From: Lachnospiraceae bacterium
GTDB lineage: Bacteria; Bacillota; Clostridia; Lachnospirales; Lachnospiraceae
NCBI GenBank assembly: GCA_902363135.1
Contig: CABIZF010000001.1
Location: 1-64,000, forward strand
Length of the DNA stretch: 64,000 nt
Direction: 5' to 3'
Within the stretch, counting starts at the first letter, position 1; every line of letters begins with the position of its first letter. The position numbers and the translations under genes were made by a program. Below are positions 16,166-48,013 of the stretch, piece after piece. A model generated the notes under the pieces. That model ran no database searches, was not told the origin of the DNA, and saw only the letters and a program-made list of their open reading frames with translations.

Positions 16166-16198
16166 GACGAGCACATGGAAAAAGGGAGGGTTTTACAA

Positions 16199-19358: not shown

Positions 19359-19387
19359 TTGACAATCGAAAAGTACAACGTTATACT
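19359..19387 (+). promoter_or_regulatory. Upstream promoter of the LacI gene with its own operator (O1)
   Basis: TTGACA at 19359-19364, 17-bp spacer, TATACT at 19382-19387. The 14-bp near-palindrome GTACAACGTTATAC occupies 19373-19386, covering the spacer and the -10. It matches the operators at 20911-20937 and 28948-28982, so the regulator probably represses itself. The other parts of the 19078-19592 gap hold only the second promoter at 19457. Confidence 0.75.
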
Positions 19388-20879: not shown

Positions 20880-20937
20880 TAGACAAAGATTAATGCGTGC
20901 AGTATGATAAGTACAACGTTTTAGTACAACGTAATAC
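20880..20937 (+). promoter_or_regulatory. Promoter and double operator (O2) of the ABC/CocE operon
   Basis: TAGACA at 20880-20885, 17-bp spacer, TATGAT at 20903-20908. Two operator copies, GTACAACGTTTTAG (20911-20924) and GTACAACGTAATAC (20924-20937), cover the expected transcription start. Confidence 0.75.
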
Positions 20938-20962
20938 ACAAATTTTTAATGGAGGAAAGGAT

Positions 20963-22504
20963 ATGAAAAGAAAACTGATCGGCCTTGTGGCAGCTGTGGC
21001 GGCTTCCCTCGTGATGGCGACCGGCGTTTCTGCTGAGAGCGCAGAACCGAAGTACGGAGGAACTCTGAAGTACGCATCCCACAACACAACGTCAACCCCG
21101 GGCTACACGCCGGACAACTCAAACAACGCATCCCTGATTTTCCTGAACACCGCATACGAGTCTCTGACTTACTACGATGAGAGCGGTGCGATCATTCCGA
21201 GACTGGCGACCGAGTGGACAACAGACCCGGAGGAGCCGAGTATCACCTGGACCTTACGTGAGGGCGTACAGTTCGCAGATGGCACCGACTTTAATGCAGA
21301 AGCAGTAAAGGTCAACATCGAAGAGTACCAGAAGTGCTCCAGAAATGAGACTGCGAATGTTGCTTCCGTAGAAGTTATTGACGACTATACCGTAAAGATG
21401 ATCCTGAACAGCTGGAATTCTTCCACGCTGGAGTCTGTCGGATTCTTCGTATATTATATGTCTCCGGCTGCACTTGAGGATGTAGATTCCCTGAGAAATT
21501 CTTCCTGCGGTACTGGTGCATTCCAGGTAAGCGAGTTCAATCCGGGCGTATCTGTAAAGTATACCAAAAATGAAAATTACTGGCAAGAAGGAAAGCCGTA
21601 TCTGGATGGTGTTGAGATATACATTGTAGACGAGCCGACGACCAGAGCATCTGCATTCCAGGCTGGTGAGTATGACATCATTCTGATGAACAATCTGACC
21701 GTTGCAAATGACCTGATTTCCTCTGATCTGTATGAGATGGAGAGAAACGTATCCGGTCAGGGTCTTGTATCTACCGGACTGATTCCTAACTCTGCAGAAG
21801 AGGGACCGTTCCAGGATCCGGTAGTTCGCCGCGCAATGTGCTATGCAATTGATACACAGGCACTCAGCGATGCATTTGGTTATGGATATCTGACTGTTCT
21901 GAATCAGTGGGCAGCACCGGGCGCTCCGACGTATGATGAGAACCTCAATGCGATCACTTATGATCCGGACAAAGCAAGAGAGCTCCTCGCACAGGCTGGC
22001 TATCCGGATGGATTTGATACCACTCTTACGACTGATGCGGGAAACAAGGACTACTTTACCGCAGCAGCAAACATGCTGACAGAGGTAGGCATCCGTTGTA
22101 CCGTAGATCTCGTAGATGAGTCCGCACAGGTAAATCTGTACCAGACTGGTACATGGCATGGTATCATGGGTCACTTTGCATCCATCGCACCGGATCTTGG
22201 ACTGTACATGGGCCGTCATCTGGATACAAACGGCGCGTTCTATGCAAAGGGCATTCAGCATCCGGACGATCACATGGAGCTTCTTGAGAAAATCCGTACT
22301 GCAGCAACAGAAGAAGAAAAGATTCAGCTTGAGTATGAGATGCAGGAGCTGATCTATGATGCAGATAACGGTTCTGCTCTGTTTGGACAGCCGCTGTATG
22401 CACAGGCTGAGCCGATTCTTAAGTACAGCTATGTAAAGGATGACAACAGAAGCGTTGTTCATGTCGGCACATGGAATGTAGAGAACTGCTGGCTGGATAA
22501 ATAA
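20963..22504 (+). CDS. ABC transporter substrate-binding protein, peptide type (SBP_bac_5)
   Basis: 513 aa. A signal peptide (KRKLIGLVAAVAASLVMATGVSA) is followed by a family-5 solute-binding domain: GGTLKYASHNTTSTPGYTPD at the N-terminus, TWTLREGVQFADGTDFNAEAV, and the conserved DPVVRRAMCYAID near residue 290. It would capture a peptide-like or acylated ligand outside the cell. Unusually, the signal peptide ends in VSAES with no lipobox cysteine, so no lipid anchor is predicted. The start at 20963 has GGAGGAAAGGAT upstream. First gene of the operon under operator O2. Confidence 0.9.
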   Translation: MKRKLIGLVAAVAASLVMATGVSAESAEPKYGGTLKYASHNTTSTPGYTPDNSNNASLIFLNTAYESLTYYDESGAIIPRLATEWTTDPEEPSITWTLREGVQFADGTDFNAEAVKVNIEEYQKCSRNETANVASVEVIDDYTVKMILNSWNSSTLESVGFFVYYMSPAALEDVDSLRNSSCGTGAFQVSEFNPGVSVKYTKNENYWQEGKPYLDGVEIYIVDEPTTRASAFQAGEYDIILMNNLTVANDLISSDLYEMERNVSGQGLVSTGLIPNSAEEGPFQDPVVRRAMCYAIDTQALSDAFGYGYLTVLNQWAAPGAPTYDENLNAITYDPDKARELLAQAGYPDGFDTTLTTDAGNKDYFTAAANMLTEVGIRCTVDLVDESAQVNLYQTGTWHGIMGHFASIAPDLGLYMGRHLDTNGAFYAKGIQHPDDHMELLEKIRTAATEEEKIQLEYEMQELIYDADNGSALFGQPLYAQAEPILKYSYVKDDNRSVVHVGTWNVENCWLDK

Positions 22505-22534
22505 GCTTACGCTTACGTGACAGAGTAATAAAAA

Positions 22535-22602
22535 GCCGTCATCAGCAGACGGCGGGAGACAGTGAATCAGTGTGGAGGCACCGCAGGTCGGCTGCCTCCA
22601 CA
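22535..22602 (+). other. Two intercistronic hairpins after the binding-protein gene
   Basis: GCCGTC/GACGGC (22535-22553) and a perfect 10-bp stem TGTGGAGGCA/TGCCTCCACA (22571-22602, 12-nt loop). Neither has a T-run, so they are more likely to stabilise the 3' end of the binding-protein message than to end transcription. That would give more binding protein than permease. Confidence 0.6.
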
Positions 22603-22624
22603 TTTGGAAATTGGAGGTTTACGC

Positions 22625-23581
22625 GTGAATAAAAAGATACTTAAAATGATCGGAAAGCGTATCGTACAGTCGATCATCGTTGTTTTTATTGTAACATTGC
22701 TTGTATTCCTTCTGATGCAGCTGGTACCCGGAGATCCGATCGTGAATTTCCTTGGTTCTAATGCAACAGAAGAGCAGGTAGCATATTACACTGAACTGTT
22801 TGGTTATGATAAACCGGTTCTGGTACAGTATGGGAAATGGATTCTCGGTCTGTTTCACGGTCAGATGGGACGTTCAGTTGCTTATCAGGCGGAAATTTCA
22901 GGTATCCTGTTCCAGCGTCTTGGCATTACTATTTCGATTGTAATTCCGGCCTTTATTTTGGCGGTGGTACTTGGAATCGTACTCGGTATTCTCGCAGCAA
23001 AGAAGCGCGGAAGCAGACTGGACAGTGCGATTTCTGTATTTGCTAACATTGGTATGTCCATGCCGATGTTCTGGTTTGGAATGCTGCTGATTATGTTTTT
23101 TGCACTGAAGCTTGGCGTACTTCCGACCTCCGGATTTGTAGCGTTTAAGGATAGCCCGGGCCAGTACATTTCTCATATGGTGCTGCCGATGATTGTACTG
23201 GCGATGAATCCGCTGGCAACCTTTACGAGACAGACACGTTCTTCCATGCTGGAGGTCATCCGTCAGGATTATGTCACGACGGCACGGGCGAAAGGACTTG
23301 GTCAGAAGGCGATTACTTTTAAGCATCAGCTGAGAAACGCATTAATTCCAATCATCACCGTAATGGGAACAACACTTGGCGGTATGATTGGCGGAACAGT
23401 TCTTGTAGAGAGCATCTTCGTCGTACCCGGACTTGGCAATCTGATGATCACAGCGATCAAAGGTCGTGACTTCATGGTAGTAGAGAACGGTGTTCTCGTC
23501 ATTGCGATTGCAGTAGCACTTTGTAACCTTGTGGTAGATATTCTCTATGGCATTATTGACCCGAGAATTCGAAATGACTAA
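22625..23581 (+). CDS. ABC transporter permease, DppB/OppB type
   Basis: 318 aa, six membrane helices, BPD_transp_1 fold. The permease EAA-type loop is RQDYVTTARAKGLGQKAITFKHQLRNALIP, of which DYVTTARAKGLG is the ATPase contact. The N-terminal segment ends in LVPGDPIVNFLG, typical of DppB. The start is GTG at 22625, set by GGAGG at 22613-22617; an upstream in-frame ATG (22562) lies inside the second hairpin and has no binding site. 27 bp before the next permease. Confidence 0.92.
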   Translation: MNKKILKMIGKRIVQSIIVVFIVTLLVFLLMQLVPGDPIVNFLGSNATEEQVAYYTELFGYDKPVLVQYGKWILGLFHGQMGRSVAYQAEISGILFQRLGITISIVIPAFILAVVLGIVLGILAAKKRGSRLDSAISVFANIGMSMPMFWFGMLLIMFFALKLGVLPTSGFVAFKDSPGQYISHMVLPMIVLAMNPLATFTRQTRSSMLEVIRQDYVTTARAKGLGQKAITFKHQLRNALIPIITVMGTTLGGMIGGTVLVESIFVVPGLGNLMITAIKGRDFMVVENGVLVIAIAVALCNLVVDILYGIIDPRIRND

Positions 23582-23608
23582 TTCAAACAGTACGAAAAGG
23601 AGAAAGAA

Positions 23609-24520
23609 ATGAAGAAGAAGTTAAAAGAAATTAAAAACTCCCGTATAGTCAAAGTACTGTTTGCCAGAAAATCGGTTGTTTTCTGTCTGATCGTACTGGC
23701 GGTACTGATTCTGGCGGCAATCTTCGCGCCGCTGATTACGGTATATGATCCATACAAGCAGGATCTGACATCCATGCTGCAGGGCGTGAGTCTTACACAC
23801 CCTCTGGGAACAGACTCGATGGGCCGTGATCTGCTAACCCGTATTATTTATGGAGGTCGGATTTCCTTCGTAGTAGGTCTGGTATCCGTATTAATTGCAG
23901 GCGGCATCGGTATGGTACTCGGACTGATAGCCGGTATGGCAGGTGGAATTATTGATGCAGTTATTATGAGAATTATGGATGCGATGATGTCAGTTCCAAT
24001 GATTATTATGGCATTGTTTCTCGGAAGTATTTTTGGTAAAGGACTTGGAAATATCTGTCTGGCGATTGGTATCAGTATGATTCCGAGCTATGCGCGTGTA
24101 ACGAGAGGTCAGGTACTTACCGTCCGCGAGATGGATTACATTACGGCCGGTACGCTCTGTGGCGCATCAAAATTTGTGAATACACTGAAACACATCCTTC
24201 CAAACTGTATCTCTTCAAATATTGTTTTGATGACGATGAACCTTGGTAATGCGATTCTGAATGAAGCAGCACTTTCCTTCCTCGGCATGGGAATCAATCC
24301 GCCGACTGCGAGCTGGGGCAGCATGGTAAACGACGGATATAAGTATATGAGTTCGAATCCGGTTATTGCGATTGCACCGGGACTGTTTATCATGATCGTT
24401 GTACTTTGCTTCAACATGGTAGGTGATGCGCTCCGTGATGCGATGGATCCGAAACTTCGTGGAACACTCGGAAAGAAGAAAAAGAAAAAAGCAAGAGCTG
24501 TGAAGACAGTAAATGCATAG
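23609..24520 (+). CDS. ABC transporter permease, DppC/OppC type
   Basis: 303 aa. The N-terminal membrane segment is followed by the extracytoplasmic LTHPLGTDSMGRDLLTRIIYGGR signature of DppC proteins and five further helices with the EAA-type loop (MDYITAGTLCGASKFVNTLKHI). The C-terminus is extremely Lys-rich (KKKKKKARAVK). Partner of the permease upstream, forming the membrane channel of the importer. 14 bp before the ATPase gene. Confidence 0.92.
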   Translation: MKKKLKEIKNSRIVKVLFARKSVVFCLIVLAVLILAAIFAPLITVYDPYKQDLTSMLQGVSLTHPLGTDSMGRDLLTRIIYGGRISFVVGLVSVLIAGGIGMVLGLIAGMAGGIIDAVIMRIMDAMMSVPMIIMALFLGSIFGKGLGNICLAIGISMIPSYARVTRGQVLTVREMDYITAGTLCGASKFVNTLKHILPNCISSNIVLMTMNLGNAILNEAALSFLGMGINPPTASWGSMVNDGYKYMSSNPVIAIAPGLFIMIVVLCFNMVGDALRDAMDPKLRGTLGKKKKKKARAVKTVNA

Positions 24521-24534
24521 AAAGGATAAGCAAT

Positions 24535-25503
24535 ATGGCAGAAAAATTACTTGAGATAGAAAATCTCAGCGTTGAATATAATACAGAAATTGCGACAGTA
24601 TATGCAGTCAACGGGCTCAGCTTATCTCTGAATTACGGTGAAACTCTCGGCCTGGTAGGAGAGACCGGAGCGGGAAAGACGACAACCTGTCTGAGCATTA
24701 TGCGACTGTTACCGGAAGGGATCGGCGAGATCACAGATGGAAAGATCGTTCTGGATGGACATGACATGCTGAATCTGCCGGAGGAGAAAATTCGGGATCT
24801 GCGCGGAAATACCGTGTCCATGATTTTTCAGGATCCGATGTCCAGCTTAAATCCGGTCATGACCGTGGGCGATCAGATTAAGGAAGTGCTGAAAATTCAT
24901 AATAAAGATATGAGCAAGGCAGAGCTGGAAAAAGCCGTTGACAATATGATGGAAATGGTTGGTATTCCAGCGAATCGTAAAAATGAGTATCCCCATGAAT
25001 TTTCCGGCGGTATGAAGCAGAGAATTGTCATTGCGATTGCGCTTGTCTGTGAGCCAAAGCTGATCCTGGCCGACGAGCCGACGACGGCGCTGGATGTAAC
25101 GATTCAGGCCCAGATGCTCGGACTGATCAATGATCTTCAGAAGCGTTTGAACACGGCGATGATTCTGGTAACACACGATCTGGGGGTTGTGGCGCAGACG
25201 TGTGAGAAGGTAGCGGTCATGTATTCCGGTGAGGTTGTGGAGATCGGAAGTGCAGAGCACATTTTTGATGGTAAATATTTGCATCCGTATACACAGGGCC
25301 TGTTTAATGCGATCCCGAAACTGGATTCAGATACGCACCGTCTGGAAACGATTGAGGGAATGATTCCGGATCCGACGGTAAAAATTGAGGGTTGCCGTTT
25401 TGCAAACCGCTGTCCGTATGCGACTGATGCATGTAGAGGAACAGATATTCTGTTGAAGGAAGTGGAGCCGGGGCATTTTGTGGCCTGCACAAAGTTTCAG
25501 TGA
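24535..25503 (+). CDS. ABC transporter ATP-binding protein, DppD type
   Basis: 322 aa. Walker A is GETGAGKTT, the Q-loop MIFQDPMSSLNPVMTV, the signature FSGGMKQR, Walker B LILADEPTTALD, and the H-loop VTHDLG. The C-terminal oligopeptide-type extension ends in the CRFANRCPYATDAC cysteine motif, which is an Fe-S-like site in some family members. No DppF partner is encoded here, although this importer type normally uses a DppD/DppF heterodimer. A DppF-like protein encoded at 49039 could in principle supply the second half. Confidence 0.92.
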   Translation: MAEKLLEIENLSVEYNTEIATVYAVNGLSLSLNYGETLGLVGETGAGKTTTCLSIMRLLPEGIGEITDGKIVLDGHDMLNLPEEKIRDLRGNTVSMIFQDPMSSLNPVMTVGDQIKEVLKIHNKDMSKAELEKAVDNMMEMVGIPANRKNEYPHEFSGGMKQRIVIAIALVCEPKLILADEPTTALDVTIQAQMLGLINDLQKRLNTAMILVTHDLGVVAQTCEKVAVMYSGEVVEIGSAEHIFDGKYLHPYTQGLFNAIPKLDSDTHRLETIEGMIPDPTVKIEGCRFANRCPYATDACRGTDILLKEVEPGHFVACTKFQ

Positions 25504-25522
25504 AAGGATCAGGTGATAAGAC

Positions 25523-27202
25523 GTGTTGACACCGGAAGAGCAGCTGGAGCTGCAAAGAGTCAGAGATGAATTTGCAAAGTGCGAGCAGAAGCCGACCTAT
25601 GAAATTTTCTGCTATGAGGAAATGCTGGAAATGGACGACGGCGTAAAGCTCCGCACGATCATTTATCGCCCGGACCGGGAGGGAGCTATGCCGACGATTG
25701 TTGTGCGAACCTGCTATCCGCAGAACGATTATCTGTATCGGGCAACCGCAGAAGAGTATTGTCGAAGAGGATTCAACTATATTTACCAGTATTGCCGTGG
25801 TACCGGCGGTTCTGAGGGTGAGTGGGAGCCGAATGTGAATGAGCGTCCAGATGGCAAGAAGACCATCGACTGGATCTGTGATCAGGAGTGGGTAGGAGAT
25901 ACCGGATATACCGGATGCTCCTACTTGTCTCTGACCGGATGGCTGATCGCAGATATTCTGCCTGAAAAGGTAAAGACCATGTATCTGACCCATTATGGGG
26001 CGCAGCGCTTTGTATCCGCATTTCAGGATGGCATGTTTCGGCACGATGTGCTGACGGCATGGACGATGGAAAATGCCGGATATCCGGTGACAGCAGATTA
26101 TCTGGAGTCCTGCATGTACCATCCGCAGGTAGAGGTGGATGAAAAGCTGTGGGGAAAGAAGATCCCGTGGTATCGCCAGTGGATCACGAGCACAGATCGT
26201 AGTGATCCGTACTGGAATACCGGATTTTGGAATCTGTTAAAAGAGATTCCGTCGCGTGTAAAAGTGCCGCTGTATGTCGGAGAGGGCTGGTACGATCATC
26301 ACCTCGCCTCTGCGATTGAGACATACAAATCGCTTTCGGATGAGTGTAAGGCGAAGAGCCGGTTCCTGATCGGGGCATGGGAGCATGGATTCCATGTAAA
26401 GCTTCAGGATAAGGAAGGCACACATTTTGAGAATGATGATATTCTTCGGACGTTTTCCTGGTTTTGGGATTTCCTCGTAGAGAAAAAAGAGCCGGAAGCG
26501 CAGATTGACTATTATGTCATCGGGGATGACAGCTGGTATACCAGAAAGAATTTTGAGATTGAAAATCAGAAAGAACTGAACTTATATATCGGAGAAAAGA
26601 AGGACGGTATCTATACACTCGGGAAAGAAAAGGAAGCCGGGGAAGGCACACTGACCTGGATCTTTGATCCGGAGCATCCGGTGATGACACACGGTGCAGA
26701 ATCCCTGCTTGTGACGAAGGAGGAGCAGGGAAGCCTGCTGCAGCCGGAGCCGAATTATCGGGAAGATGTCATCAGCTGTATTTCGGAGCCATTTGAAGAA
26801 GCGGTTACCGTTGTTGGAAAGATGCAGGTAAAGCTTACCGTATCAGCGGATGTGGATGATACTGCGTTTGTTGCAAAGATTATGGAAGTGACTGCAGACG
26901 GAAAAGCATACAATATGCGGACCGGTATTACGACGCTTGGCTACCGCAACCAGAGCGATGAACGTCAGACCTATACGCCGGGAGAGAAGGTTACAATTAC
27001 CATTGATACCTGGGATCTTGCATGGAAAATCCAGAAGGGTTCCCGGATTCGAATTGATCTGACATCGTCCGATTTCCCGCAGTACAGCGTACACAGCAAC
27101 TATGCAGGCTGCTGGGCAAAGCAGGAAAAGGTGCGCAAGGCACAGGAGAGCGTATATTTTGGCGGTGAGGCGGATTCATATATCCGGTTACCGATTATCT
27201 GA
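25523..27202 (+). CDS. CocE/NonD family hydrolase (X-Pro dipeptidyl-peptidase-like), paralog 1
   Basis: 559 aa. The alpha/beta-hydrolase domain has the nucleophile Ser133 in TGCSYLS, the acid in GWYDHHLAS, and the His in GAWEHGFH. A C-terminal jelly-roll (DUF4976/X-Pro C-terminal type) domain spans about 365-555. Relatives hydrolyse esters (cocaine esterase), acylated cephalosporins or N-terminal X-Pro dipeptides. No signal peptide, so it acts on imported substrate. It starts with GTG 19 bp after the ATPase and is about half identical to the next gene by eye. Confidence 0.88.
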   Translation: MLTPEEQLELQRVRDEFAKCEQKPTYEIFCYEEMLEMDDGVKLRTIIYRPDREGAMPTIVVRTCYPQNDYLYRATAEEYCRRGFNYIYQYCRGTGGSEGEWEPNVNERPDGKKTIDWICDQEWVGDTGYTGCSYLSLTGWLIADILPEKVKTMYLTHYGAQRFVSAFQDGMFRHDVLTAWTMENAGYPVTADYLESCMYHPQVEVDEKLWGKKIPWYRQWITSTDRSDPYWNTGFWNLLKEIPSRVKVPLYVGEGWYDHHLASAIETYKSLSDECKAKSRFLIGAWEHGFHVKLQDKEGTHFENDDILRTFSWFWDFLVEKKEPEAQIDYYVIGDDSWYTRKNFEIENQKELNLYIGEKKDGIYTLGKEKEAGEGTLTWIFDPEHPVMTHGAESLLVTKEEQGSLLQPEPNYREDVISCISEPFEEAVTVVGKMQVKLTVSADVDDTAFVAKIMEVTADGKAYNMRTGITTLGYRNQSDERQTYTPGEKVTITIDTWDLAWKIQKGSRIRIDLTSSDFPQYSVHSNYAGCWAKQEKVRKAQESVYFGGEADSYIRLPII

Positions 27203-27216
27203 GCTGGGGTAATGCG

Positions 27217-28899
27217 ATGAAGAGTGAACGAGAGAGAACTGACGCGATCCGGAGACTGTTTGCACAGCTCCCGGCAGAAGATCGGGTGTACCGGTTCTGG
27301 TCGGAGGAATTTATGCTTTCGGCCAAGGGGGCAAAGCTGCGTACATGTGGCTGGTTCCCCGAGACGGAGGAACCGGTTCCAGTTATCGTGACGCGGAGCT
27401 GCTATCCGCATCAGGAGGCAGAATTCCGGATCTATGGTGAGGAGTATGCAAAACGCGGGTTTGGCTTTGTCGTGCAGTGGTGCCGGGGGACGAATGGCTC
27501 CGGCGGAAACTGGGAGCCGAATACATGGGAGCGGCAGGACGGACTGGGGCTGATGCAATATCTTTCGGATCGACCGGAAGTAAAAAACATTGGCTACTGG
27601 GGTAATTCCTATCTGGCATCAACCGGATGGTGCATGGCGGATGCGGTTCCGGAGAAAGTAAAAAGTATGTATCTGGGCGTCTATGGCACAGACCGTTATA
27701 CGTCGGTCTATCAGGATGGGCTGTTCCGGCAGGATATTTTTACCTGGTGGTCGATGACCAATGCAGGGAAAAAAGTAGATGCAGATTATCTGGAATCGTG
27801 TCGCTACCGTCCGCAGATGGAGGTCGATGAAGCGCTGTGGGGTGTAAAGCTTCCATGGTACCGCGACTGGATCGGCAATACTGACCGCGACAGTGAGTAC
27901 TGGTCGCAGGCAGGCTTCTGGAAAATGATGCAGGAGATTCCGGGACGGCTGAGGATTCCAGTATTTATCCGGGATGGCTGGTATGACCATCACCTTGGCA
28001 GCGCAGTAGTGACCTGGAAGAGCTTGTCAGAGCAGGCCGGGATGCACAGTACTCTGCAGCTTGGGCCGTGGCGTCATGAGTATGACTACGCACTGGATGG
28101 GCAGAGTACGGAACATCTGGAGGATGATAGTGTCTCGTCTGTGTATCAGTGGTTCACGAAAACATTAAAAAAGGAACAACTTCCAAAGCGACAATGCCAA
28201 CTCTATGTGGTGGGCGCAGACCGCTGGATCACGATGGAGGATTTGCCAGAGAAGGGGCAGACAGAGAAACTGTATCTGGATGCTGGATCGTTTACCAACG
28301 GAGCGGCTACTTTGACGCAGAAGCCGGGGAAAGAGGCGAAGGTGACGTATACATATGATCCGGAGAATCCTGTCATGTCGCACGGGACAGAGTCCTGCTT
28401 TAAATCAAAAAGAGAGATCGGAAGTCTCTGGCAGCCAGCGTGCGGATATCGTCCGGATGTTCTGAGCTTTCGTTCACAGGCGTATGAACAGCCGTTGGAG
28501 ATGGCAGGCTGTATAGAAGTCATTCTGTATGTCAGCTCGGATGCAGAGGATACTGCATTTACCGCCAAGATCATGGAAGAGTTTGAAGATGGCCGCACGG
28601 TGAATATCCGGAGCATGATAACGACCCTTGCCTATCGGAACGGGGCAGACACTCGTCAGACGTATACGCCTGGAACTGTCAAAGAAATTCATCTACATAT
28701 GTGGCCGATCGCGTGGAAAACGCATCCAAATTCCAGAATCCGTGTGGATATTTCTTCGTCGGATTTTCCGCAATATGCCGTGCACAGTAACTATTCAGGT
28801 ATCTGGTCTGTGCAGAAGCGTACAAAGTGCGCACAGCAGGTGATTTATACAGGAACGGGACGTGAATCAAGAGTGATTCTTCCAGTAAATACTTTATAA
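27217..28899 (+). CDS. CocE/NonD family hydrolase, paralog 2
   Basis: 560 aa, a tandem duplicate of the preceding hydrolase. It has the same layout: Ser131 in GNSYLAS, Asp in GWYDHHLGS, His in GPWRHEYDY, and the C-terminal beta-rich domain ending in SRIRVDISSSDFPQYAVHSN, shared with paralog 1. It lies 14 bp downstream. The two probably act on different stereo- or acyl variants of the same substrate class. It is the last gene before a second operator-bearing promoter. Confidence 0.88.
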   Translation: MKSERERTDAIRRLFAQLPAEDRVYRFWSEEFMLSAKGAKLRTCGWFPETEEPVPVIVTRSCYPHQEAEFRIYGEEYAKRGFGFVVQWCRGTNGSGGNWEPNTWERQDGLGLMQYLSDRPEVKNIGYWGNSYLASTGWCMADAVPEKVKSMYLGVYGTDRYTSVYQDGLFRQDIFTWWSMTNAGKKVDADYLESCRYRPQMEVDEALWGVKLPWYRDWIGNTDRDSEYWSQAGFWKMMQEIPGRLRIPVFIRDGWYDHHLGSAVVTWKSLSEQAGMHSTLQLGPWRHEYDYALDGQSTEHLEDDSVSSVYQWFTKTLKKEQLPKRQCQLYVVGADRWITMEDLPEKGQTEKLYLDAGSFTNGAATLTQKPGKEAKVTYTYDPENPVMSHGTESCFKSKREIGSLWQPACGYRPDVLSFRSQAYEQPLEMAGCIEVILYVSSDAEDTAFTAKIMEEFEDGRTVNIRSMITTLAYRNGADTRQTYTPGTVKEIHLHMWPIAWKTHPNSRIRVDISSSDFPQYAVHSNYSGIWSVQKRTKCAQQVIYTGTGRESRVILPVNTL

Positions 28900-28935
28900 A
28901 ACATAATTATTAAGTGCTAAAAGAACAGGTAGTTC

Positions 28936-28982
28936 TTGACAAAACAAGTACAACGTTGTATCATACAAGTATAACGTTGTAC
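28936..28982 (+). promoter_or_regulatory. Promoter and double operator (O3) of the AtuA/CoA operon
   Basis: TTGACA at 28936-28941, 17-bp spacer, TATCAT at 28959-28964. Operators GTACAACGTTGTAT (28948-28961) and GTATAACGTTGTAC (28969-28982) lie exactly 21 bp apart, two helical turns, so both face the same side of the DNA. Confidence 0.8.
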
Positions 28983-29031
28983 TAAACAAAACGGAATATA
29001 GGTAACAAAGCAATTGCAAGGAGGAACTGAG

Positions 29032-30399
29032 ATGAAAAAAGTAGCGATAGGAGGAGGCCAGGGCTTCTGGGGAGACTCCCCTGACGCGGCGATTCATATG
29101 ATCCGCAATGCGGATATTCAGTATATGGGCTGCGATTATCTGGCTGAGCTGACGCTTTCCATCATGGCAAAGCAGCAGCTGAAGGATCCGACAAAAGGCT
29201 TTGCACCGGACTTTCAGACAAGAATTCTGAAAGAGGCCGGCAAGGAAGCGTGGGAGAAACACATCCGTATCTGTACAAATGCAGGTGGTATGAATGTTGC
29301 AGGCTGTGTAGACGGCATCAGGCAGTGGGCCGAGTCGGAAAAGATGAAGGGATATAAGATCGGATATGTCACGGGCGATTCGATTAAGGACAAGATCCCA
29401 CAGCTGCTCAAGGACGGATGGACATTCCCGAATTTTGACTATGACGGAGATTTCCATTCGATTCTGGATAAGATTTATAACTGTAACGCTTACATCGGAC
29501 ATGAGGGAATCGAACAGTGTCTGCGCGACGGAGCAGATGTGGTCATTACCGGACGTGCTGCAGACAGCGCATTGTTCCTTGCACCGCTGGCCTATGAGTT
29601 TGGCTGGGCGGATAATGACTGGAACAATCTGGCTCGTGGTATTATGGCAGGCCACTTGCTGGAGTGTGGCGGACAGGGAGCCGGTGGTAACTATATGTAT
29701 GACTGGAGAAATGTACCGCGGATGGATGAGTTGGGATTCCCGATCGCAGAGCTGACGGATGATACGTTTGAGATCACTAAAGCTCCGGACTGTGGCGGTG
29801 TGATTTGTGAGCAGAGCTGCAAGGAGCAGTTCCTCTATGAGGTCCATGACCCGGCAAATTATCTGACACCGGATGTAAATGTAGATATCAGTAAGGCAAC
29901 GATTACCCAGGTGGGACCGGACCGTGTACGGATCGGCAATGTCCGGGGCAAACAGCGTCCGGATACGTTAAAGCTCTGCGTGGGATACCACAAGGGCTGG
30001 AAGACGGTTTCCATGCTGAGTTTTGCGTGGCCGGATGCCTATGAGAAGGCACAGTACTGTGCAGAAGTTATCATGAAAAAGATGGCCCGTCGAGGCATGA
30101 AGGCGGATGATGTACATATCAGCTATATTGGTGTAAACAGCCTGCATCTTGGCGTGGCAGATATGAGTGAGGAAGCGCTTAAGAATCTGAATGAGTGTGT
30201 ACTGCGTATCGCGGTATTCAGCGAAGATAAGAGTGAGTGTGCGAAGATTATTCCGGAAATCAGTCCGCTGCAGTTGAACGGACCGCCAGGAGCGTCCTTC
30301 TTCGGAGGACGTGCGCGGGTACAGGAGGTTATGGCGTTGTGGCCGACTACGATTCCGAGAGATGCACTGGATATTCAGTCTCACATACTGGAGGTATAG
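29032..30399 (+). CDS. AtuA-like protein, large part (DUF1446 / acyclic terpene utilisation family)
   Basis: 455 aa. The N-terminus KKVAIGGGQGFWGDSPDAA and the MGCDYLAELTLSIMAKQ motif match the AtuA/DUF1446 family, which in Pseudomonas belongs to acyclic terpene catabolism but whose catalytic role is not established. The family's C-terminal domain is here a separate gene 3 bp downstream. AAGGAGG lies 8 bases before the ATG at 29032. It is the first gene under operator O3. In this context it is likely a lyase or CoA-linked step between hydrolysis and thiolysis. Confidence 0.85.
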   Translation: MKKVAIGGGQGFWGDSPDAAIHMIRNADIQYMGCDYLAELTLSIMAKQQLKDPTKGFAPDFQTRILKEAGKEAWEKHIRICTNAGGMNVAGCVDGIRQWAESEKMKGYKIGYVTGDSIKDKIPQLLKDGWTFPNFDYDGDFHSILDKIYNCNAYIGHEGIEQCLRDGADVVITGRAADSALFLAPLAYEFGWADNDWNNLARGIMAGHLLECGGQGAGGNYMYDWRNVPRMDELGFPIAELTDDTFEITKAPDCGGVICEQSCKEQFLYEVHDPANYLTPDVNVDISKATITQVGPDRVRIGNVRGKQRPDTLKLCVGYHKGWKTVSMLSFAWPDAYEKAQYCAEVIMKKMARRGMKADDVHISYIGVNSLHLGVADMSEEALKNLNECVLRIAVFSEDKSECAKIIPEISPLQLNGPPGASFFGGRARVQEVMALWPTTIPRDALDIQSHILEV

Positions 30400-30402
30400 A
30401 CG

Positions 30403-30732
30403 ATGCCGGAAATTTATTTAAATGATATTGCACATGGCCGCAGTGGTGATAAGGGAGACACGAGCAATGTCTGCGTATATGCCAGAAAGCCGGAATATTA
30501 TAAGATCATTGAGCGGGAAGTGACACCGGAAAAGCTGCATGCTTTTTTCGGAGATATGGTGAAGGGTGAAATTACAAGATATGAAGTTCCAAGTCTTGGC
30601 GGCTTCAATTTTGTCATGAAGCATGCACTTGGCGGCGGAGCGACGATGAGCCTTCGTCTGGACTCCCTTGGAAAATCCATGGGAAGCGCGGTTATGCGTA
30701 TGAAGATTCATGTAGAAGATGGAGAAATTTAA
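30403..30732 (+). CDS. AtuA C-terminal domain protein (small subunit)
   Basis: 109 aa. It begins LNDIAHGRSGDKGDTSNV, the hallmark of the AtuA-related C-terminal domain, and has VPSLGGFNFVMKHALGGGATMSLRLDSLGK further on. In many organisms this is fused to the AtuA N-terminal part; here it is separate, immediately following. The 3' end overlaps the next gene by 14 bp, indicating translational coupling with the VWA protein. Confidence 0.85.
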   Translation: MPEIYLNDIAHGRSGDKGDTSNVCVYARKPEYYKIIEREVTPEKLHAFFGDMVKGEITRYEVPSLGGFNFVMKHALGGGATMSLRLDSLGKSMGSAVMRMKIHVEDGEI

Positions 30733-32134
30733 AGAACAAAAAGAGCTTGCCGGGCAGATTTTGCATCTGACGGAAGCGAAGCTGCTTACGAGGCTCCGGT
30801 TTTTATCCGGAGCCCTTACAGCAATAAGCTATAAAACTTCAGAAGAAAAGCTTTTATTTGCGGCGGAAAAGGATTGTATTTCCTATAATCCAGAACAACT
30901 TCTGAGAAGGTATCAGAAGTCACCGGATGTGATAACTCATGCGATGGTGCATTGCCTCCTCCATTTGCTGATGGGACATCCGTTCTGTCATCAGGAGAAG
31001 GATATAAGGCTGTGGAATCTGGCGAGTGATATGGCTGTGGAGTATTCCTGTATGGAACTTTCCGGATATTTTTTATCAGAGCACTACGCGAGGGAGAGGG
31101 CCAGTCAGCTGGAACGTTTTTCAGATTATGCAGGTGGGAACACAGCAGAAGCTTTCTACAATTACTTTTTGGAAAGCGATCTTTCGGAAGAAGAGCAGGA
31201 GGGATTAGAGTCGCTGTTTTATCTGGATAGCCATAAATATTGGGATGTTCCGGAAAAAAGTGCTGTACAAGGCGGGAGGAAGACTTCAGGAGAACTTACC
31301 GGAAATTCCGATGAGGAAGAGACGCCTGAAAATCCGGCGGCAGGTGCAGAGGCACCGGAGGAAACCGCCCGTAAGGAAAAGCAGGAGAAGAAATGGAAAC
31401 AGCTGGCGCGGCAGGTGCAGACAGATCTGGAATTGTTTCAGAGAAGACAGGGCATCCGTGCGGGCAGCCTGATTCAGGGGATGAAGCCGTTTCTATTTGA
31501 GACGGTGGATTATACGGCTTTTTTACGGATGTTTGCAGCAGAAAATGAAGTCCTGCAGATTTCGGATGAGGAATTTGATCCGATCTATTACACGTATGGA
31601 CTGCAGAAGTATGGAAATATCCCGTTGATTGAACCGCTGGAATACAGTAATCTGCATCGCATTCGGGAGTTTGTCATTGCGATTGATACATCTGGAAGTG
31701 TTCAGGGCGAGATCGTTGCTGAGTTTTTGCGGCAGACTGTGCGTGTGCTGCATCAGACAGCGAGCTTTACGGATCAGGTGGCGATTTTCATTTTACAGTG
31801 TGATGCACAAATACAGAGCTGTATCCAGATTCATGAGCTGAAGGAATTGGATGAGTATATCGATCATCTGGAGCTGTATGGATTTGGAGGAACAGATTTC
31901 CGGCCGGTGTTTGAATACGTAGAGCAACTGCTGGAGCAGAAAAAATTGAAAAAAGTAAATGGGCTGCTTTATTTTACCGATGGGGCAGGCATTTATCCGG
32001 AAATAGAGCCAGCGTATAAGACCGCTTTTATTTTTAATCGGGATGACTACAGCTCACCGAAGGTTCCAGAGTGGGCGATCCGTGCAGTGCTGACTTCAGA
32101 CAATATCCGGATCCTGAAGAAAAATATAAAATGA
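30719..32134 (+). CDS. VWA-like protein with DUF2201-type putative metallopeptidase N-terminus
   Basis: 471 aa. The N-terminal domain contains HAMVHCLLHLLMGHPF (an HxxxH-like helix) and ASDMAVEYSC, as in the DUF2201 'putative metallopeptidase' domain. A Glu/Lys-rich linker covers about 185-235. The C-terminal VWA domain keeps the MIDAS motif IDTSGSVQ, the distal Thr (GGTDFRP) and LYFTDGAG. Such proteins pair with MoxR AAA+ ATPases in metal insertion or conformational activation of enzymes. Overlaps the AtuA small subunit gene and is 16 bp from the ATPase gene. Cytoplasmic. Confidence 0.85.
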   Translation: MEKFKEQKELAGQILHLTEAKLLTRLRFLSGALTAISYKTSEEKLLFAAEKDCISYNPEQLLRRYQKSPDVITHAMVHCLLHLLMGHPFCHQEKDIRLWNLASDMAVEYSCMELSGYFLSEHYARERASQLERFSDYAGGNTAEAFYNYFLESDLSEEEQEGLESLFYLDSHKYWDVPEKSAVQGGRKTSGELTGNSDEEETPENPAAGAEAPEETARKEKQEKKWKQLARQVQTDLELFQRRQGIRAGSLIQGMKPFLFETVDYTAFLRMFAAENEVLQISDEEFDPIYYTYGLQKYGNIPLIEPLEYSNLHRIREFVIAIDTSGSVQGEIVAEFLRQTVRVLHQTASFTDQVAIFILQCDAQIQSCIQIHELKELDEYIDHLELYGFGGTDFRPVFEYVEQLLEQKKLKKVNGLLYFTDGAGIYPEIEPAYKTAFIFNRDDYSSPKVPEWAIRAVLTSDNIRILKKNIK

Positions 32135-32150
32135 AAAATGGAAGCATGAT

Positions 32151-33647
32151 ATGAATATTGCAAACGCAAAACAACAGATCAAAAATGCAGTGACCATTTA
32201 TTTGCAAAAAGATGCACTGGGGAGATATGAGGTACCGCTGGTACATCAGCGACCGATTTTCTTGCAGGGAGCGCCGGGTCTTGGCAAAACTGCGATCATG
32301 AAACAGATCAGCGAGGAGCTTGGGATCGGGCTGGTTTCCTATTCTATGACGCATCACACCAGGCAGAGTGCGATTGGACTGCCGATGATTGTGGAGCGGG
32401 AATTTGGCGGAAAGCGCTATTCCGTGAGCGAATATACGATGAGTGAAATCATTGCAAGCGTATATGAGTGCATGGAACGTACCGGAAAAAGGGAAGGAAT
32501 CCTGTTTCTGGATGAGATTAATTGTATTTCAGAGACTTTATCTCCGGCAATGTTGCTGTTTCTCCAGTACAAGGTTTTCGGAGGACATACGCTTCCGGAT
32601 GGATGGGTCGTTGTGACAGCCGGAAATCCGGCAAGATACAATAAAAGTGTCCGGGAATTTGATGCAGCGACACTGGATCGGCTGAAATACCTTCCGGTAG
32701 AGCCGGATTATGAGATATGGAAGGAATATGCGGTGCAGAGAAATGTATGCCGCACGATTTTAAGCTTTTTGGATATTCGACCAGATTGCTTTTATGTAAT
32801 GGAAACGACGGTTTCAGGCTTTTCTGTTGTCACCCCACGGTCGTGGGAGGATCTTTCCCAGAGTATTTGGATGCATGAACGGCTTCAGATCGAGATCGAC
32901 CAGAATCTGATTCGGCAATATTTACAGAATGATGCCGTAGCACGGGATTTTGCCGTCTATTATGAGCTGTATCAAAAATATCGTTTGGCCTATGACGTCG
33001 ATGCGATTGTGGCAGGAACTTATAACCCGGAAACACTAGAGGAGGCACGACAGGCCAGGATAGATGAGCGGTTGACCTTAACTGGATTGCTGCTTGAGAA
33101 GGTGCTCGGAGATATGCAGTACTGCACGACAGAAAAAACAGCATTACTGAAACTCAGGGAGCAGCTGGTGGCCCAAAAAGAAGTGCTGGAAGCGACGGGT
33201 ACTCAGGCTGTGAAAGTTTTTGATGAGATGCAGCATGCATTGAGAACGTCGGCAGAACAGGGATCAGAGGCGGAACAGGCCGGATGGAACAGCGCGGCGT
33301 CTCAGCTTCATAAGATGCAAAAGGCAGCCATGCGGAATACAGGTAAGTTATCTGTATATGAAGTGTGCCGCAGCTATTATGCAACGCAGGTGGCAGAGCT
33401 GGAACAGCACGTAAAAAAGACACAAGCAGAATGTGGAAATCTTTTAAAGTTTTTGCAGCAGGCGTTTGGAGATGGAAATGAGCTCTCGATGGCGGTCAGT
33501 GACCTGACGGCGAAACCGGAGGCATCTTCGTTCATTGGACAGTTTCTGAGTCTGGAATTTTTTGAGGCAAGCAGTCGTCTTCAGCTTCATAAAAAGGAAA
33601 AACAGCTGCAGGATCGGATTCAGCTTGCACTTGGAGAAGAGGGCTGA
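32151..33647 (+). CDS. MoxR-type AAA+ ATPase
   Basis: 498 aa. The AAA domain is about residues 30-240: Walker A GAPGLGKT, Walker B GILFLDEIN, sensor region VVTAGNPARYNKSV and the DRLKYLPVEPD arginine-finger area. The remaining 250 residues are largely helical with a Gln/Glu/Lys-rich coiled coil. It would act as an ATP-driven chaperone with the adjacent VWA protein. Its place between AtuA and CoA-transferase genes, under the same operator, suggests it matures or activates a pathway enzyme. Confidence 0.87.
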   Translation: MNIANAKQQIKNAVTIYLQKDALGRYEVPLVHQRPIFLQGAPGLGKTAIMKQISEELGIGLVSYSMTHHTRQSAIGLPMIVEREFGGKRYSVSEYTMSEIIASVYECMERTGKREGILFLDEINCISETLSPAMLLFLQYKVFGGHTLPDGWVVVTAGNPARYNKSVREFDAATLDRLKYLPVEPDYEIWKEYAVQRNVCRTILSFLDIRPDCFYVMETTVSGFSVVTPRSWEDLSQSIWMHERLQIEIDQNLIRQYLQNDAVARDFAVYYELYQKYRLAYDVDAIVAGTYNPETLEEARQARIDERLTLTGLLLEKVLGDMQYCTTEKTALLKLREQLVAQKEVLEATGTQAVKVFDEMQHALRTSAEQGSEAEQAGWNSAASQLHKMQKAAMRNTGKLSVYEVCRSYYATQVAELEQHVKKTQAECGNLLKFLQQAFGDGNELSMAVSDLTAKPEASSFIGQFLSLEFFEASSRLQLHKKEKQLQDRIQLALGEEG

Positions 33648-33668
33648 GGATTGACAGAGGGATAAGAT

Positions 33669-34913
33669 ATGGAACAAAGAAAGCGACAGATGCGGTTTGC
33701 AGTGACGGTGGATGGTGAAATTCTGATGACGAAGCCCAGTGATGAGGAAGCGGCGGGATATGTGGATTTCTCTGTCTTGGAAGATGGTACGGCGAGGTTG
33801 CTTCGCTGGCCGAGAAATACGACTGTGGCACGTTTGCCGGAAATGATCGGAGGCTATCAGATTACGGAAATCGCACCGCTTGCATTTGCGGCATTTCATT
33901 TTTCAAAGGAGCTCTGGGAGCAGTTCGGAGGAGGCTCTTCTCTTTCGTTTAGCATTTTCTGTATCATGCATGCCGTGGCTATGCAGCGGGAAGCGGTGGA
34001 TGCGGGTGGCCCTGTGGAGATCTGGCTTCCTGATACGATCCGAAGCATTGGAATGTATGCATTCTGGCATTGTGACCGACTGACGAAGGTTCGGCTTCCG
34101 GCTTATCTGGAACATCTTAAGGCAGGGCTTTTCGGAGAGTGCAGCAGACTGGAGCAGGTACAGCTTCCAGATTGTCTGACGCAAATCGGAACGATATATC
34201 CGGACAATGTACATGTCATGCCGGATGTAGGTGTGTTTTCAGGATGCCATGCGTTAAAAGAACTGGCGCTGCCGAAGACGGTAACGGTGATCGGAGCAGA
34301 ATCCTTTAATAGCTGTGGTCTGGTACATTTACGGATTGAGGATGAAGAAACTGATGGTCAGCAGCCATGGTCACGGAGGATTGAAACCCATCCGCTGACA
34401 TTTGATCATACGGCAGCACTGCAGTGGATGAGTCGTTGTATCAATGGAACGATCATAAGGCAGATCGGGCTACCGGAGGCAAGAGATAAGATTTTAACTT
34501 GTGATGAGCGTTATCGTATTATTGCGAGTTTACCCAGACTGTTTCTGACAGAAGGAGCAGAGCAGATGGATATAATCGCAAAAGAAGCTTTCCGGTTGGA
34601 TTTTTCTGGAAGAATGGCGATCGCAAGACTGCGGTATCCGGAATATTTGAGCACTGAAATGCGAAGATGGTACCTGGGGATTCTGGTAGAGTATTCGGAT
34701 CGGCTGGAAAAGTTCTGGCCAGGAGAAGAGAACCGGGAGAGAGAACTTCTCGATTTGCTGCAAGGCTGCGAAGGATTTGACGCACAGCTTCTGGGAGAGC
34801 TGATGGCAATTGCCGGCAGAAATCATATGCAGCCGGAACTGATTTATGAAATGATGGAATTACGCAACAGACGCTTTTCTGGAATTACCGGAATGGAGTG
34901 TCTGGCACTATAG
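33669..34913 (+). CDS. Cytoplasmic leucine-rich (BspA-like) protein
   Basis: 414 aa with no signal peptide. Residues 1-35 start with a charged segment. Then come LRR_5-like repeats (about 45-225) with the pattern LPDTIRSIGMYAFWHCDRLTKVRLP, of which the core repeat SIGMYAF resembles surface BspA units. The C-terminal half (about 255-414) is helical and unassigned. It lies 21 bp after the MoxR gene. I infer a scaffold or substrate adaptor for the VWA/AAA+ pair; no catalytic motif is seen. Confidence 0.7.
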   Translation: MEQRKRQMRFAVTVDGEILMTKPSDEEAAGYVDFSVLEDGTARLLRWPRNTTVARLPEMIGGYQITEIAPLAFAAFHFSKELWEQFGGGSSLSFSIFCIMHAVAMQREAVDAGGPVEIWLPDTIRSIGMYAFWHCDRLTKVRLPAYLEHLKAGLFGECSRLEQVQLPDCLTQIGTIYPDNVHVMPDVGVFSGCHALKELALPKTVTVIGAESFNSCGLVHLRIEDEETDGQQPWSRRIETHPLTFDHTAALQWMSRCINGTIIRQIGLPEARDKILTCDERYRIIASLPRLFLTEGAEQMDIIAKEAFRLDFSGRMAIARLRYPEYLSTEMRRWYLGILVEYSDRLEKFWPGEENRERELLDLLQGCEGFDAQLLGELMAIAGRNHMQPELIYEMMELRNRRFSGITGMECLAL

Positions 34914-34949
34914 AAATACAGTATAGGTGAAGAAAAAGGAGATACGGCT

Positions 34950-36155
34950 ATGGAGGAGAGAAAAGCAGAACAGGCACTGGAAAATTTAACGGTACTGGAT
35001 CTTACAAGAGTTGTTGCAGGACCTTATGCAGGCGCACTGCTTGGAGATCTGGGCGCAAATGTAATTAAAATTGAGATTCCGGGAAGAGGCGATGACGCGC
35101 GCGGATATGGTCCGTACGAAAACGGAGAAAGCATGTATTATGCAAACTTGAACCGAAACAAACGCGGAATTACTTTAAATATGAAATCAGAAAAGGGAAA
35201 AGAAGCATTTTTGAAACTGGTGGAAAAGGCAGATATTCTGATCGAAAATTTCCGACCAGGTGTCATGGATAAGCTGGGACTTGGTTATGATCGTCTGAAA
35301 GAAATTAATCCGCGACTGATTTACGGAGCGGTATCCGGTTTTGGATGCTATGGACCATATGCTATGCGTCCTGGTTATGACATTGTATCTCAGGCGATGG
35401 GAGGGCTGATGAGTGTTACTGGCGCGAAGGGAGGAGAGCCGACCAGATCCGGAAATGCGATGGGAGATATTTTGGGTGGCATGAATCTGGTCATTGGTGT
35501 ACTTGCGGCAGTTAATTACCGGAATATGACCGGAAAAGGACAGCGCGTGGATATTTCTCTAGTGGATTCTGTTGTGGCAAGTTTGGAGAATGCGTATGTG
35601 CGTTACTTTAAATCGCATAAACTTCCGGTAAGAAACGGAAACGCATACGCTTCGATTGCCCCATATGACGCGTATCATGCAAAGGATGGCTATGTCATTA
35701 TTGCCTGTGGCAATCAGAAGCTTTATGAGAAGTTTTGTAATGAGGTAGTAAATATGCCGTGGATGATTACGGATGAGCGTTTTCTGACCGTTCCGCTTCG
35801 TGTGGAGAACAATGAAATACAGAAAAAGTATATCGAAGAGTGGACGACGCAATATACTGTGGATGAAGTAGTGGATATTGTACTTTCACACGGAATTCCG
35901 GCAGGCCCGATTTATAACGTAAAACAGATTACGGAGGATCATCACATTGCGGAAGTACGCGAGATGTTTATTGATATTGACCATCCGGTAATTGGAAAGA
36001 TGACCGTTAATGGATGCCCGGTAAAGCTGATGGATGCAATGCCGAGAATTAATCGTCCGGGTCCGACGCTTGGTCAGCACAATGAAGAGGTTTATAAGGC
36101 AATCGGATATACGGATGATGAACTTGAAGAGATGAAGCAGGAAAATGTAATCTAA
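34950..36155 (+). CDS. CaiB/BaiF family CoA-transferase (class III)
   Basis: 401 aa. The N-terminal [19 protein letters not shown] and [12 protein letters not shown] motifs, [13 protein letters not shown] and the catalytic Asp in [11 protein letters not shown] identify the class III family. It transfers CoA from one acyl-CoA to another acid. The specific acids are unknown; in this operon it would activate the acid released by the CocE hydrolases or processed by AtuA. AAAAAGGAGATA precedes the ATG. 10 bp before the thiolase. Confidence 0.92.
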
Positions 36156-36165
36156 GGAGGCGGAC

Positions 36166-37350
36166 ATGGCTAAAAAGGTAGTAGTTGCAGGAGCATGCCG
36201 TACAGCGATCGGAAAAATGGGTGGAGCGCTTGCAAATGTACCGGCAACGGAACTGGGAGCGATCGTGATCCGTGAGGCACTTGCGCGAGCCGGGGTACCG
36301 GCAACGGAAGTAGATCATGTCTATATGGGATGTGTCATTCAGGCGGGTCTCGGTCAAAATGTAGCGCGACAGGCTTCTATCAAGGCGGGGCTTCCGGTGG
36401 AGACACCGGCAGTAACAGTAAATGTGGTGTGCGGCTCCGGTTTAAACTGCGTGAACATGGCGGCGCAGATGATTCAGGCAGGCGATGCAGATATCGTAGT
36501 AGCCGGAGGTATGGAAAATATGTCAATGGCACCTTACGCGATGATGAACGGTCGGTTTGGATATCGCATGAATAATGGAACGCTTGTAGATACGATGGTA
36601 AATGATGCACTATGGGATGCGTTTCATCAGTATCATATGATGATTACGGCGGAGAATGTAGCAGAACAGTGGCATCTGACCCGAGAAGAGCTGGATGCAT
36701 TTGCGGCGGAGAGTCAGCAGAAATGTGAACAGGCGCAGGCAGCCGGTGTATTTGCGGATGAGATTGTTCCGGTTCCGGTAAAGGTAAAAAAGAACATCAT
36801 AGAATTTTCAAAAGACGAGGGGCCGCGTGCCGGAACGACAAAGGAAGGGCTGTCAGCATTGCGCTGCTGTTCCGGAAAGGAGGGTGGCGTCGTAACAGCC
36901 GGAAATGCATCAGGAATCAATGATGGCGCGGCGGCAGTCGTCGTGATGAGTGAAGAAAAAGCAGCTGAGCTTGGGGTAAATCCGATGGCAGTCTTTGTAG
37001 CCGGAGCACTTGGTGGTGTAGATCCGTCTATTATGGGTGTAGGTCCGGTAGCATCGACCCGCAAGGTATTGAAGAAGACGGGACTTTCGATCTCGGATTT
37101 TGATCTGATCGAGGCAAATGAGGCGTTTGCAGCCCAGTCTCTGGCAGTGGCAAGAGAGCTTGGGCTGGATCCGGAAAAGCTTAATGTAAATGGCGGAGCG
37201 ATCGCACTTGGTCACCCAGTCGGTGCATCCGGCTGCCGGATTCTCGTGACTCTGCTGCACGAAATGCAAAGACGGGATGCGAAGCGTGGACTGGCTACCC
37301 TGTGTATTGGCGGCGGCATGGGCTGCTCGACGGTTGTAGAGCGGGTGTGA
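36166..37350 (+). CDS. Acetyl-CoA acetyltransferase (thiolase II family)
   Basis: 394 aa. Catalytic Cys89 in VVCGSGLNC, the His in [10 protein letters not shown] and the second Cys in LCIGGGMG are all present. Thiolases cleave 3-ketoacyl-CoA into acetyl-CoA and a shortened acyl-CoA, or run in reverse. It is the last gene of the operon under operator O3. There is no acyl-CoA dehydrogenase, hydratase or 3-hydroxyacyl-CoA dehydrogenase in the operon, so the substrate probably enters at the 3-keto level. Confidence 0.93.
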
Positions 37351-47038: not shown

Positions 47039-47051
47039 AAGGAAAACGGAC

Positions 47052-47999: not shown

Positions 48000-48013
48000 C
48001 GGAGTAGAGAGCC

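Follow-up and report, generated by a model that had tools for sequence, protein, structure and literature searches.

We analyzed a stretch of 64,000 nucleotides from a Lachnospiraceae bacterium (contig CABIZF010000001.1, positions 1 to 64,000; hereafter the window) and find that its operon at positions 20,963 to 37,350 is probably a regulon for the catabolism of 3-hydroxy-3-methylglutarate (HMG) supplied as an ester (or amide). At the center of the operon is a two-gene enzyme of the AtuA family, which we propose with more than fair confidence to be an HMG-CoA-cleaving enzyme; the assignment of the acid as HMG is made with fair confidence, and both proposals come from comparing sequences among relatives. 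In the proposed pathway, an Opp-type importer would take up the intact HMG conjugate, two cytoplasmic-looking CocE hydrolases would free HMG from its presumed ester, a class III CoA-transferase (CaiB) would form HMG-CoA, as its relatives suggest, and the AtuA large/small pair would cut HMG-CoA, most likely to acetoacetyl-CoA and acetate. A thiolase would then yield two acetyl-CoA from acetoacetyl-CoA. AtuA is placed at the HMG-CoA-cleaving step because of a gene replacement seen in relatives, and its likely products are taken from the Atu pathway.

The initial annotation of this DNA had described a single regulon for the import, hydrolysis, activation, and thiolysis of an ester or amide. All the genes it named are present on the plus strand with Pfam or NCBIfam support, and the order of steps fits the evidence, as does the idea that AtuA gives a 3-oxoacyl-CoA without a dehydrogenase or hydratase. 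The annotation had AtuA acting before CoA activation; its role in the pathway stands, but the evidence favors a position after the CoA-transferase, with HMG-CoA as its substrate. An ester or amide is likewise retained as the substrate, with HMG proposed in place of an open list of acids. The neighborhood, the conservation of which the annotation had left to be checked, has a core that is conserved in relatives.

AtuA and the enzymes of HMG-CoA

The large AtuA subunit matches the solved citramalate lyase (CmlA, PDB 9erq and 9evf) over its full length with 19% identity, and the fold test gave the same result, while no match was found for the small subunit among solved chains. We scanned one-genome-per-species contigs with an AtuA alignment and took the best 80 of 121 loci encoding a relative, which together with the window made 81 loci; genes were called by our own codon-usage caller, with which small genes can be missed. 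CaiB was found near AtuA in 60/81 loci, and HMG-CoA reductase (HMGR) was found near AtuA in 14/81. In 13 of these 14 loci, all without CaiB, the AtuA genes are directly followed downstream by HMGR on their own strand. L061 is the sole locus with both, having CaiB behind a single AtuA pair and HMGR on the opposite strand. The mutual exclusion of CaiB and HMGR gave a Fisher p of 7e-9 (2e-8 when restricted to the 63 loci flanked by 3 kb or more on both sides). The NCBI "degradative" HMGR model was passed by 11/11 scanned reductases of the 14 (L061, L066, and L070 were left out), and the best solved matches of the L078 HMGR were HMG-CoA reductases, with 6dio and 1qax, the Pseudomonas mevalonii enzyme, first. 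The CaiB and HMGR labels interleave on the AtuA tree, and the CaiB loci L054 and L056 fall within a well-supported HMGR group, although the tree brings together several long branches, so that individual placements are uncertain. As AtuA stays while the supplier alternates between HMGR and the CoA-transferase, the simplest reading is that AtuA acts on HMG-CoA.

HMGR was also sampled irrespective of AtuA, using 391 genomes of the class, 225 of one order, and 394 of another order, with some genomes common to more than one sample. HMGR was found in 7/391, 4/225, and 1/394 genomes, respectively (12 genomes), and its partner was an HMG-CoA lyase in seven, AtuA in four, and neither in one; both were never found together. 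The lyase-like gene adjoins HMGR in G028, G099, G165, G176, G308, and G999 and is 2.2 kb off in G780. The lyases of G780, G099, G165, G176, and G308 were above the curated 246-bit cut-off, while the G028 lyase scored 165 bits and the G999 lyase 200 bits, both under it; the HMGRs of G099, G165, G176, and G308 are of another subtype, best matched by an NADPH model but below its cut-off. AtuA adjoins HMGR in G005, G211, G776, and G830, of which the first two had already been counted as L078 and L080, and the last two lie outside the 80 loci. The HMGR of G205, with neither lyase nor AtuA nearby, is fused to a kinase-like domain. The exchange is most direct between G999 (L111), which has the lyase, and G830 (L110), which has AtuA, as both carry the same sigma54 activator, TctB, TctA, and HMGR genes. 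Such gene neighborhoods are what the replacement of an enzyme by one of unrelated origin would leave.

No lyase-like gene was found at E 1e-10 within the 81 AtuA loci. Among the genes of the window operon there is no member of the classical HMG-CoA lyase families (NF004283 / PF00682), and a tblastn search of the window with HMG-CoA lyase gave no match at E 1e-10. At the level of whole genomes, the lyase search covered 18, three of which (G780, G999, and G028) have HMGR standing with a lyase; an HMG-CoA lyase above the cut-off was found in 2 of the 15 AtuA-carrying genomes searched, and the other 13 gave weak matches of 64 bits at most. G028 also carries an outer-type AtuA elsewhere in its genome. 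In the class sample, PF07287 matched in 35/391 genomes, with E < 1e-100 in just eight, so that most are other, weaker types.

Terpene degradation was rejected as the role of AtuA here, as the operon contains neither a geranyl-CoA carboxylase nor a hydratase gene; carboxylase and hydratase genes do adjoin AtuA in L102. Three further arrangements were observed among the loci. In L037, L061, and L077, aconitase-X and S-Me-THD-like proteins and Opp genes lie beside HMGR and AtuA (L037 was scanned and the others assigned by cluster), a gene set perhaps for the use of anhydromevalonate compounds. At L081:5134-7902, a single 923-aa frame joins HMGR to an ecdysteroid-kinase-like/APH domain. An Azospirillum plasmid (L100:4634-9080) encodes a citrate symporter, AtuA, a small protein, and 3-oxoacid CoA-transferase A/B, a cluster that may serve HMG use in Pseudomonadota.

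Operators and conservation of the locus

A 16-bp operator-like palindrome, AGTAYAACGTTRTACT, precedes the LacI gene, the gene for the solute-binding protein (SBP), and atuA. A search of the window gave 10 strand matches against 0.17 expected from shuffling; nine of them make up five sites at the three promoter regions, matched on one or both strands, and the tenth is at 59347. Judged by these sites, the LacI regulator would control all three transcription units, and the claim of one regulon gains support from the sequence. In the relatives, we surveyed the stretch from 400 nt 5' to 60 nt 3' of the called atuA start, leaving out L059, whose upstream stretch was too short. The operator was present in 20/59 CaiB loci at one mismatch or fewer and in 31/59 at two or fewer, while it was present in 0/13 HMGR-only loci. 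Loci with neither CaiB nor HMGR had it in 4/8 and 6/8 cases, respectively. A letter-shuffled control gave 0/4000 and 1/4000 at the same two thresholds.

Among the other genes of the operon, a LacI regulator was found near AtuA in 43/81 loci, CocE in 33/81, thiolase in 17/81, and an Opp permease in 16/81 (permease 1 in 15 and permease 2 in 14). The whole set of LacI, Opp importer, CocE, AtuA, CaiB, and thiolase is present, for example, in L001 and in Blautia schinkii (L020).

Substrate, CoA activation, and competing readings

The best solved match of CaiB is the succinate-hydroxymethylglutarate CoA-transferase (9br6), a class III enzyme like CaiB itself, with 284.8 bits (374.1 by a 12-sequence profile); the second is YfdE (4hl6), an oxalate CoA-transferase, with 277.7 bits (360.9 by profile). 

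Several observations weigh against reading the operon as an HMG regulon. The margin of the HMG CoA-transferase over YfdE is just 7 bits (13 by profile), and CaiB, at 322.4 bits, falls below the curated cut-off of 750 of the NCBI succinate-glutarate CoA-transferase model NF052585. With this small margin and the closest NCBI named family failed so widely, CaiB agrees with HMG without proving it, and its substrate is not fixed by sequence. Two AtuA-carrying genomes also encode lyase-like proteins above the cut-off, Acidaminococcus (L026, with AtuA and CaiB) having five such genes and Youngiibacter (L078) one. Eight of the 81 loci are without both CaiB and HMGR; four of them (L038, L039, L040, and L045) stop shortly after AtuA, but L003, L004, L005, and L013 do not. 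Thiolase, near AtuA in so few loci, never occurs together with HMGR. The association of CocE with an Opp permease is weak (10/16 vs 23/65, p 0.09). Finally, the title of one solved AtuA relative names ADP and pyruvate; should this point to the use of ATP and not to a CoA site, the steps could follow another order.

These points leave room for four other readings. It is unlikely, in our view, that the CaiB-type operon uses another 3-hydroxy acid (citramalate-like, 3-hydroxyglutarate, or longer 3-alkyl-3-hydroxyglutarates) and that HMG-CoA is handled in the HMGR loci only. Class III CoA-transferases are broad in substrate, the CaiB margin is small, and the AtuA superfamily acts on several acids, all of which would suit such a substrate; the interleaving of HMGR and CaiB loci on the AtuA tree, and the presence of both beside the single AtuA pair of L061, would not.

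We consider it rather improbable that AtuA cuts free HMG to acetoacetate and acetate, after which the class III CoA-transferase activates acetoacetate. The solved AtuA homologue is indeed named for citramalate, a free acid, and near the AtuA relatives of L084 and L100 no class III CoA-transferase or HMGR was seen, but 3-oxoacid/acetate CoA-transferase genes were. However, the 13 close loci pair AtuA with HMGR, which in the degradative direction yields HMG-CoA, and class III transferases are not the usual enzymes of acetoacetate activation.

We give equally little credence to AtuA cutting HMG-CoA as the classical lyase does, to acetyl-CoA and acetoacetate, with the thiolase serving another step. 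Such a reaction would match the HMG-CoA lyase position that AtuA occupies in the sigma54-Tct-HMGR clusters, but the operon is without a class I acetoacetate-activating gene and has a thiolase, and PMC4847356 assigns an acetate-releasing reaction to the Atu enzyme. That the genes are a loose collection without a common pathway is very improbable: although AAA relatives occur apart from AtuA and neither thiolase nor CocE is in every locus, operators precede all three units, the same core is found in many genera, and the operator is kept 5' of atuA in CaiB loci while being absent in HMGR loci.

Returning to an HMG conjugate as the substrate, we infer its uptake and hydrolysis as an ester. The ester would need intact import because the CocE proteins show no hydrophobic N-terminus. 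CocE was found in 0/15 loci with a CitMHS or TctA transporter versus 33/66 others, which would follow if no esterase is needed for free acids; the contrast is not independent, since a single HMGR-type arrangement accounts for 10 of the 15. Scanning one representative of each protein cluster, we found that an arabinofuranosidase adjoins AtuA in L003-L005 and that carboxylesterase and sugar-type ABC genes are present at L032, L034, L035, L055, L069, and L075. These neighbors suit HMG-acylated glycosides as the substrate. HMG-acylated compounds are recorded for Lilium and Moringa, and PMC12682905 and PMC11939887 describe plant saponins and flavonoids acylated with HMG.

The proposed pathway can be set beside several known systems. 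In mevalonate degradation of the Pseudomonas mevalonii type, a degradative HMGR is combined with HMG-CoA lyase. HMG-CoA is central there as well, and AtuA relatives are found in the same kind of sigma54-Tct-HMGR cluster, the differences being that AtuA stands in for the lyase and that the window has the CoA-transferase where HMGR would be. The Atu pathway shares the AtuA family and the cutting of a 3-hydroxy-3-alkylglutaryl-CoA to acetate and a 3-oxoacyl-CoA. The window differs from it in having no geranyl-CoA carboxylase, hydratase, or dehydrogenase and in having AtuA split in two genes, and its substrate would be HMG-CoA, entering via a CoA-transferase. CmlA differs in acting on citramalate rather than HMG(-CoA) and in that the window small subunit is without a solved match. 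For CaiB, the solved succinate-hydroxymethylglutarate CoA-transferase (9br6, 9br7) is the closest counterpart. The initial annotation knew of no described pathway with this set of genes, and none was found in the literature searched; single steps have precedents in the acetate lyase, as the passages of PMC4847356 describe it, and in the citramalate lyase (9erq/9evf). Among the matches listed from openly licensed literature, no paper joined AtuA with citramalate lyase, HMG, or mevalonate.

More tentatively, and as a possibility only, AtuA may be a second, unrelated HMG-CoA-cleaving family (giving acetate and acetoacetyl-CoA) that replaces the classical lyase in gut and environmental anaerobes, with a regulon of gut Clostridia that eats HMG-acylated plant glycosides and, in some, a VWA-AAA-LRR machine devoted to assembly or activation of the lyase; it could also supply the missing first HMG steps of the bee symbiont Snodgrassella alvi. 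A family that mainly bears the labels "acyclic terpene utilisation" or DUF1446 would thereby become a testable HMG-CoA lyase, and gut anaerobes would gain a route for HMG and mevalonate without the classical lyase. Removal of the HMG acyl group by gut bacteria would bear on the action of plant saponins and flavonoids. PMC11343714 records HMG as a free gut metabolite in bees and notes that the S. alvi genome carries no annotation for the first two steps of 3Hmg use, a gap on which the finding bears.

The VWA-AAA-LRR trio and the layout of the window

The VWA and AAA genes were found near AtuA in 10/81 loci, always on the AtuA strand and in varying positions; the leucine-rich-repeat (LRR) gene is present in nine of these, and L005 ends before it. 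The AAA+/VWA module that the initial annotation counted in the pathway set is thus present but is an optional add-on, and the trio was rejected as an essential part of the pathway. The module is not specific to AtuA, as AAA relatives occur in 146/250 genomes of the family at E 0.001. In a tree, the 10 AtuA-linked AAA proteins were split from 10 others by a 100/100 branch (the L079 branch being very long); the 10 others were the best-scoring of a much longer match list, and other AAA proteins could place differently. This branch disfavors a random insertion of the trio.

The pair has the make-up of a MoxR-vWA module, with an AAA+ protein carrying Walker motifs adjoining a VWA protein with a MIDAS. 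An H-x-x-x-H...GH motif is present in 10/10 AtuA-linked VWA proteins, and the HExxH glutamate is missing in all, which disfavors an active metalloprotease. MoxR-VWA pairs are known activators of metalloenzymes, so that a role in AtuA assembly is a natural guess; on this tentative reading, the trio would probably remodel or activate the AtuA enzyme. An orphan MoxR-VWA-LRR module would thus gain a test case on a named enzyme. A defense role found no strong match in the PADLOC models: VWA and LRR gave none, and the best for AAA was IetA with 24.1 bits (E 5e-6) over residues 5-62. The trio shares with the MoxR-vWA ternary systems of PMC7159879 an AAA+/VWA pair with a third protein; it differs in its third protein, LRR_5, which is outside the classes named in the passages concerned, and in its tie to a metabolic enzyme. 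It did not score as a beta-propeller-class system either (PF20030 MoxR, 20.3 bits vs a cut-off of 27). No LRR form of the module was described among the matches listed or in those passages of PMC7159879. One unlinked module (L091) has an LRR_5-like third protein just below the cut-off (26.5 vs 27.7 bits). VWA-AAA modules, several with an extra downstream gene, were observed at L090-L099 and are frequent in the family.

The genes and operator sites are collected in Table 1. The LRR gene, between the AAA+ and CoA-transferase genes, was absent from the initial annotation. Intergenic gaps are -14 to 36 nt within both long blocks, except for ~120 nt 3' of the SBP gene; larger gaps lie 5' of the SBP gene (350 nt) and between the second CocE hydrolase and atuA (132 nt). 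The CoA-transferase, the thiolase, the AAA+ protein, and the two hydrolases each carry the motifs expected of them.

Table 1. Genes and operator-like sites of the operon in the window.
Feature	Position	Strand	Support
LacI-type operator 5' of regulator gene	19372..19387		0 mismatches on - strand
LacI-family regulator	19593..20612	+	PF00356 53.4 bits, PF13377 89.5 bits
Two overlapping operator-like sites 5' of importer genes	20910..20938 (starts 20910, 20923)		2-3 mismatches
Extracellular SBP, family 5, SBP_bac_5	20963..22504	+	PF00496 232.7 bits
Opp/Dpp-type permease 1, GTG start	22625..23581	+	PF00528 153.4 bits
Opp/Dpp-type permease 2	23609..24520	+	PF00528 111.9 bits
Opp-type ATPase, sole one of operon	24535..25503	+	PF00005 105.7 bits, PF08352 68 bits
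CocE/NonD serine hydrolase 1, nucleophile motif GCSYL, no hydrophobic N-terminus	25523..27202	+	TIGR00976 258.0 bits (cut-off 66.3)
CocE/NonD serine hydrolase 2, motif GNSYL	27217..28899	+	TIGR00976 198.5 bits (cut-off 66.3)
Two operator sites 5' of atuA	28947..28983 (starts 28947, 28968)		one with 0, one with 3 mismatches to searched letters
AtuA large subunit, proposed HMG-CoA:acetate lyase	29032..30399	+	PF07287 430.1 bits (cut-off 22.8)
AtuA small subunit, separate gene, ferredoxin-like domain	30403..30732	+	PF23544 98.4 bits (cut-off 27)
DUF2201-type VWA protein, DTSGS MIDAS and H-x-x-x-H...GH motif	30719..32134	+	PF09967 53.1 bits, PF13203 27.2 bits
AAA+ ATPase (MoxR-like), Walker A and B intact	32151..33647	+	PF07728 31.6 bits, PF00004 32.4 bits
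LRR (LRR_5) protein, no strongly hydrophobic segment	33669..34913	+	PF13306 61.7 bits
Class III CoA-transferase (CaiB), GDILGG motif, proposed HMG CoA-transferase	34950..36155	+	PF02515 425.8 bits (cut-off 23.3)
Thiolase, motifs CGSG, GHP, CxGGG	36166..37350	+	PF00108 321.3 bits; TIGR01930 470.2 bits (cut-off 240.55)

The second ATPase (OppF), found in several relatives' operons, is missing after OppD in the window (24535-25523), unlike in L001, L012, and L020. Elsewhere in the window, at 46112-51765, two permeases, two ATPases, and an SBP make up another full Opp set, which could supply the missing ATPase. The window SBP has a signal sequence and no lipobox cysteine; this cysteine is present in 6/7 relatives' SBPs with a readable N-terminus, L020 being without it.

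Three other features of the window were observed. A GH3 glycosidase (16175-18736) has its C-terminal domain ahead of the N-terminal one, with no operator match before the gene. An OrfB/TnpB-like IS605 transposase gene (39821-40927) lies beside a ROK gene and a second LacI gene, and a Clostridiales-1 RNA is encoded at 63152-63313 (117.9 bits).

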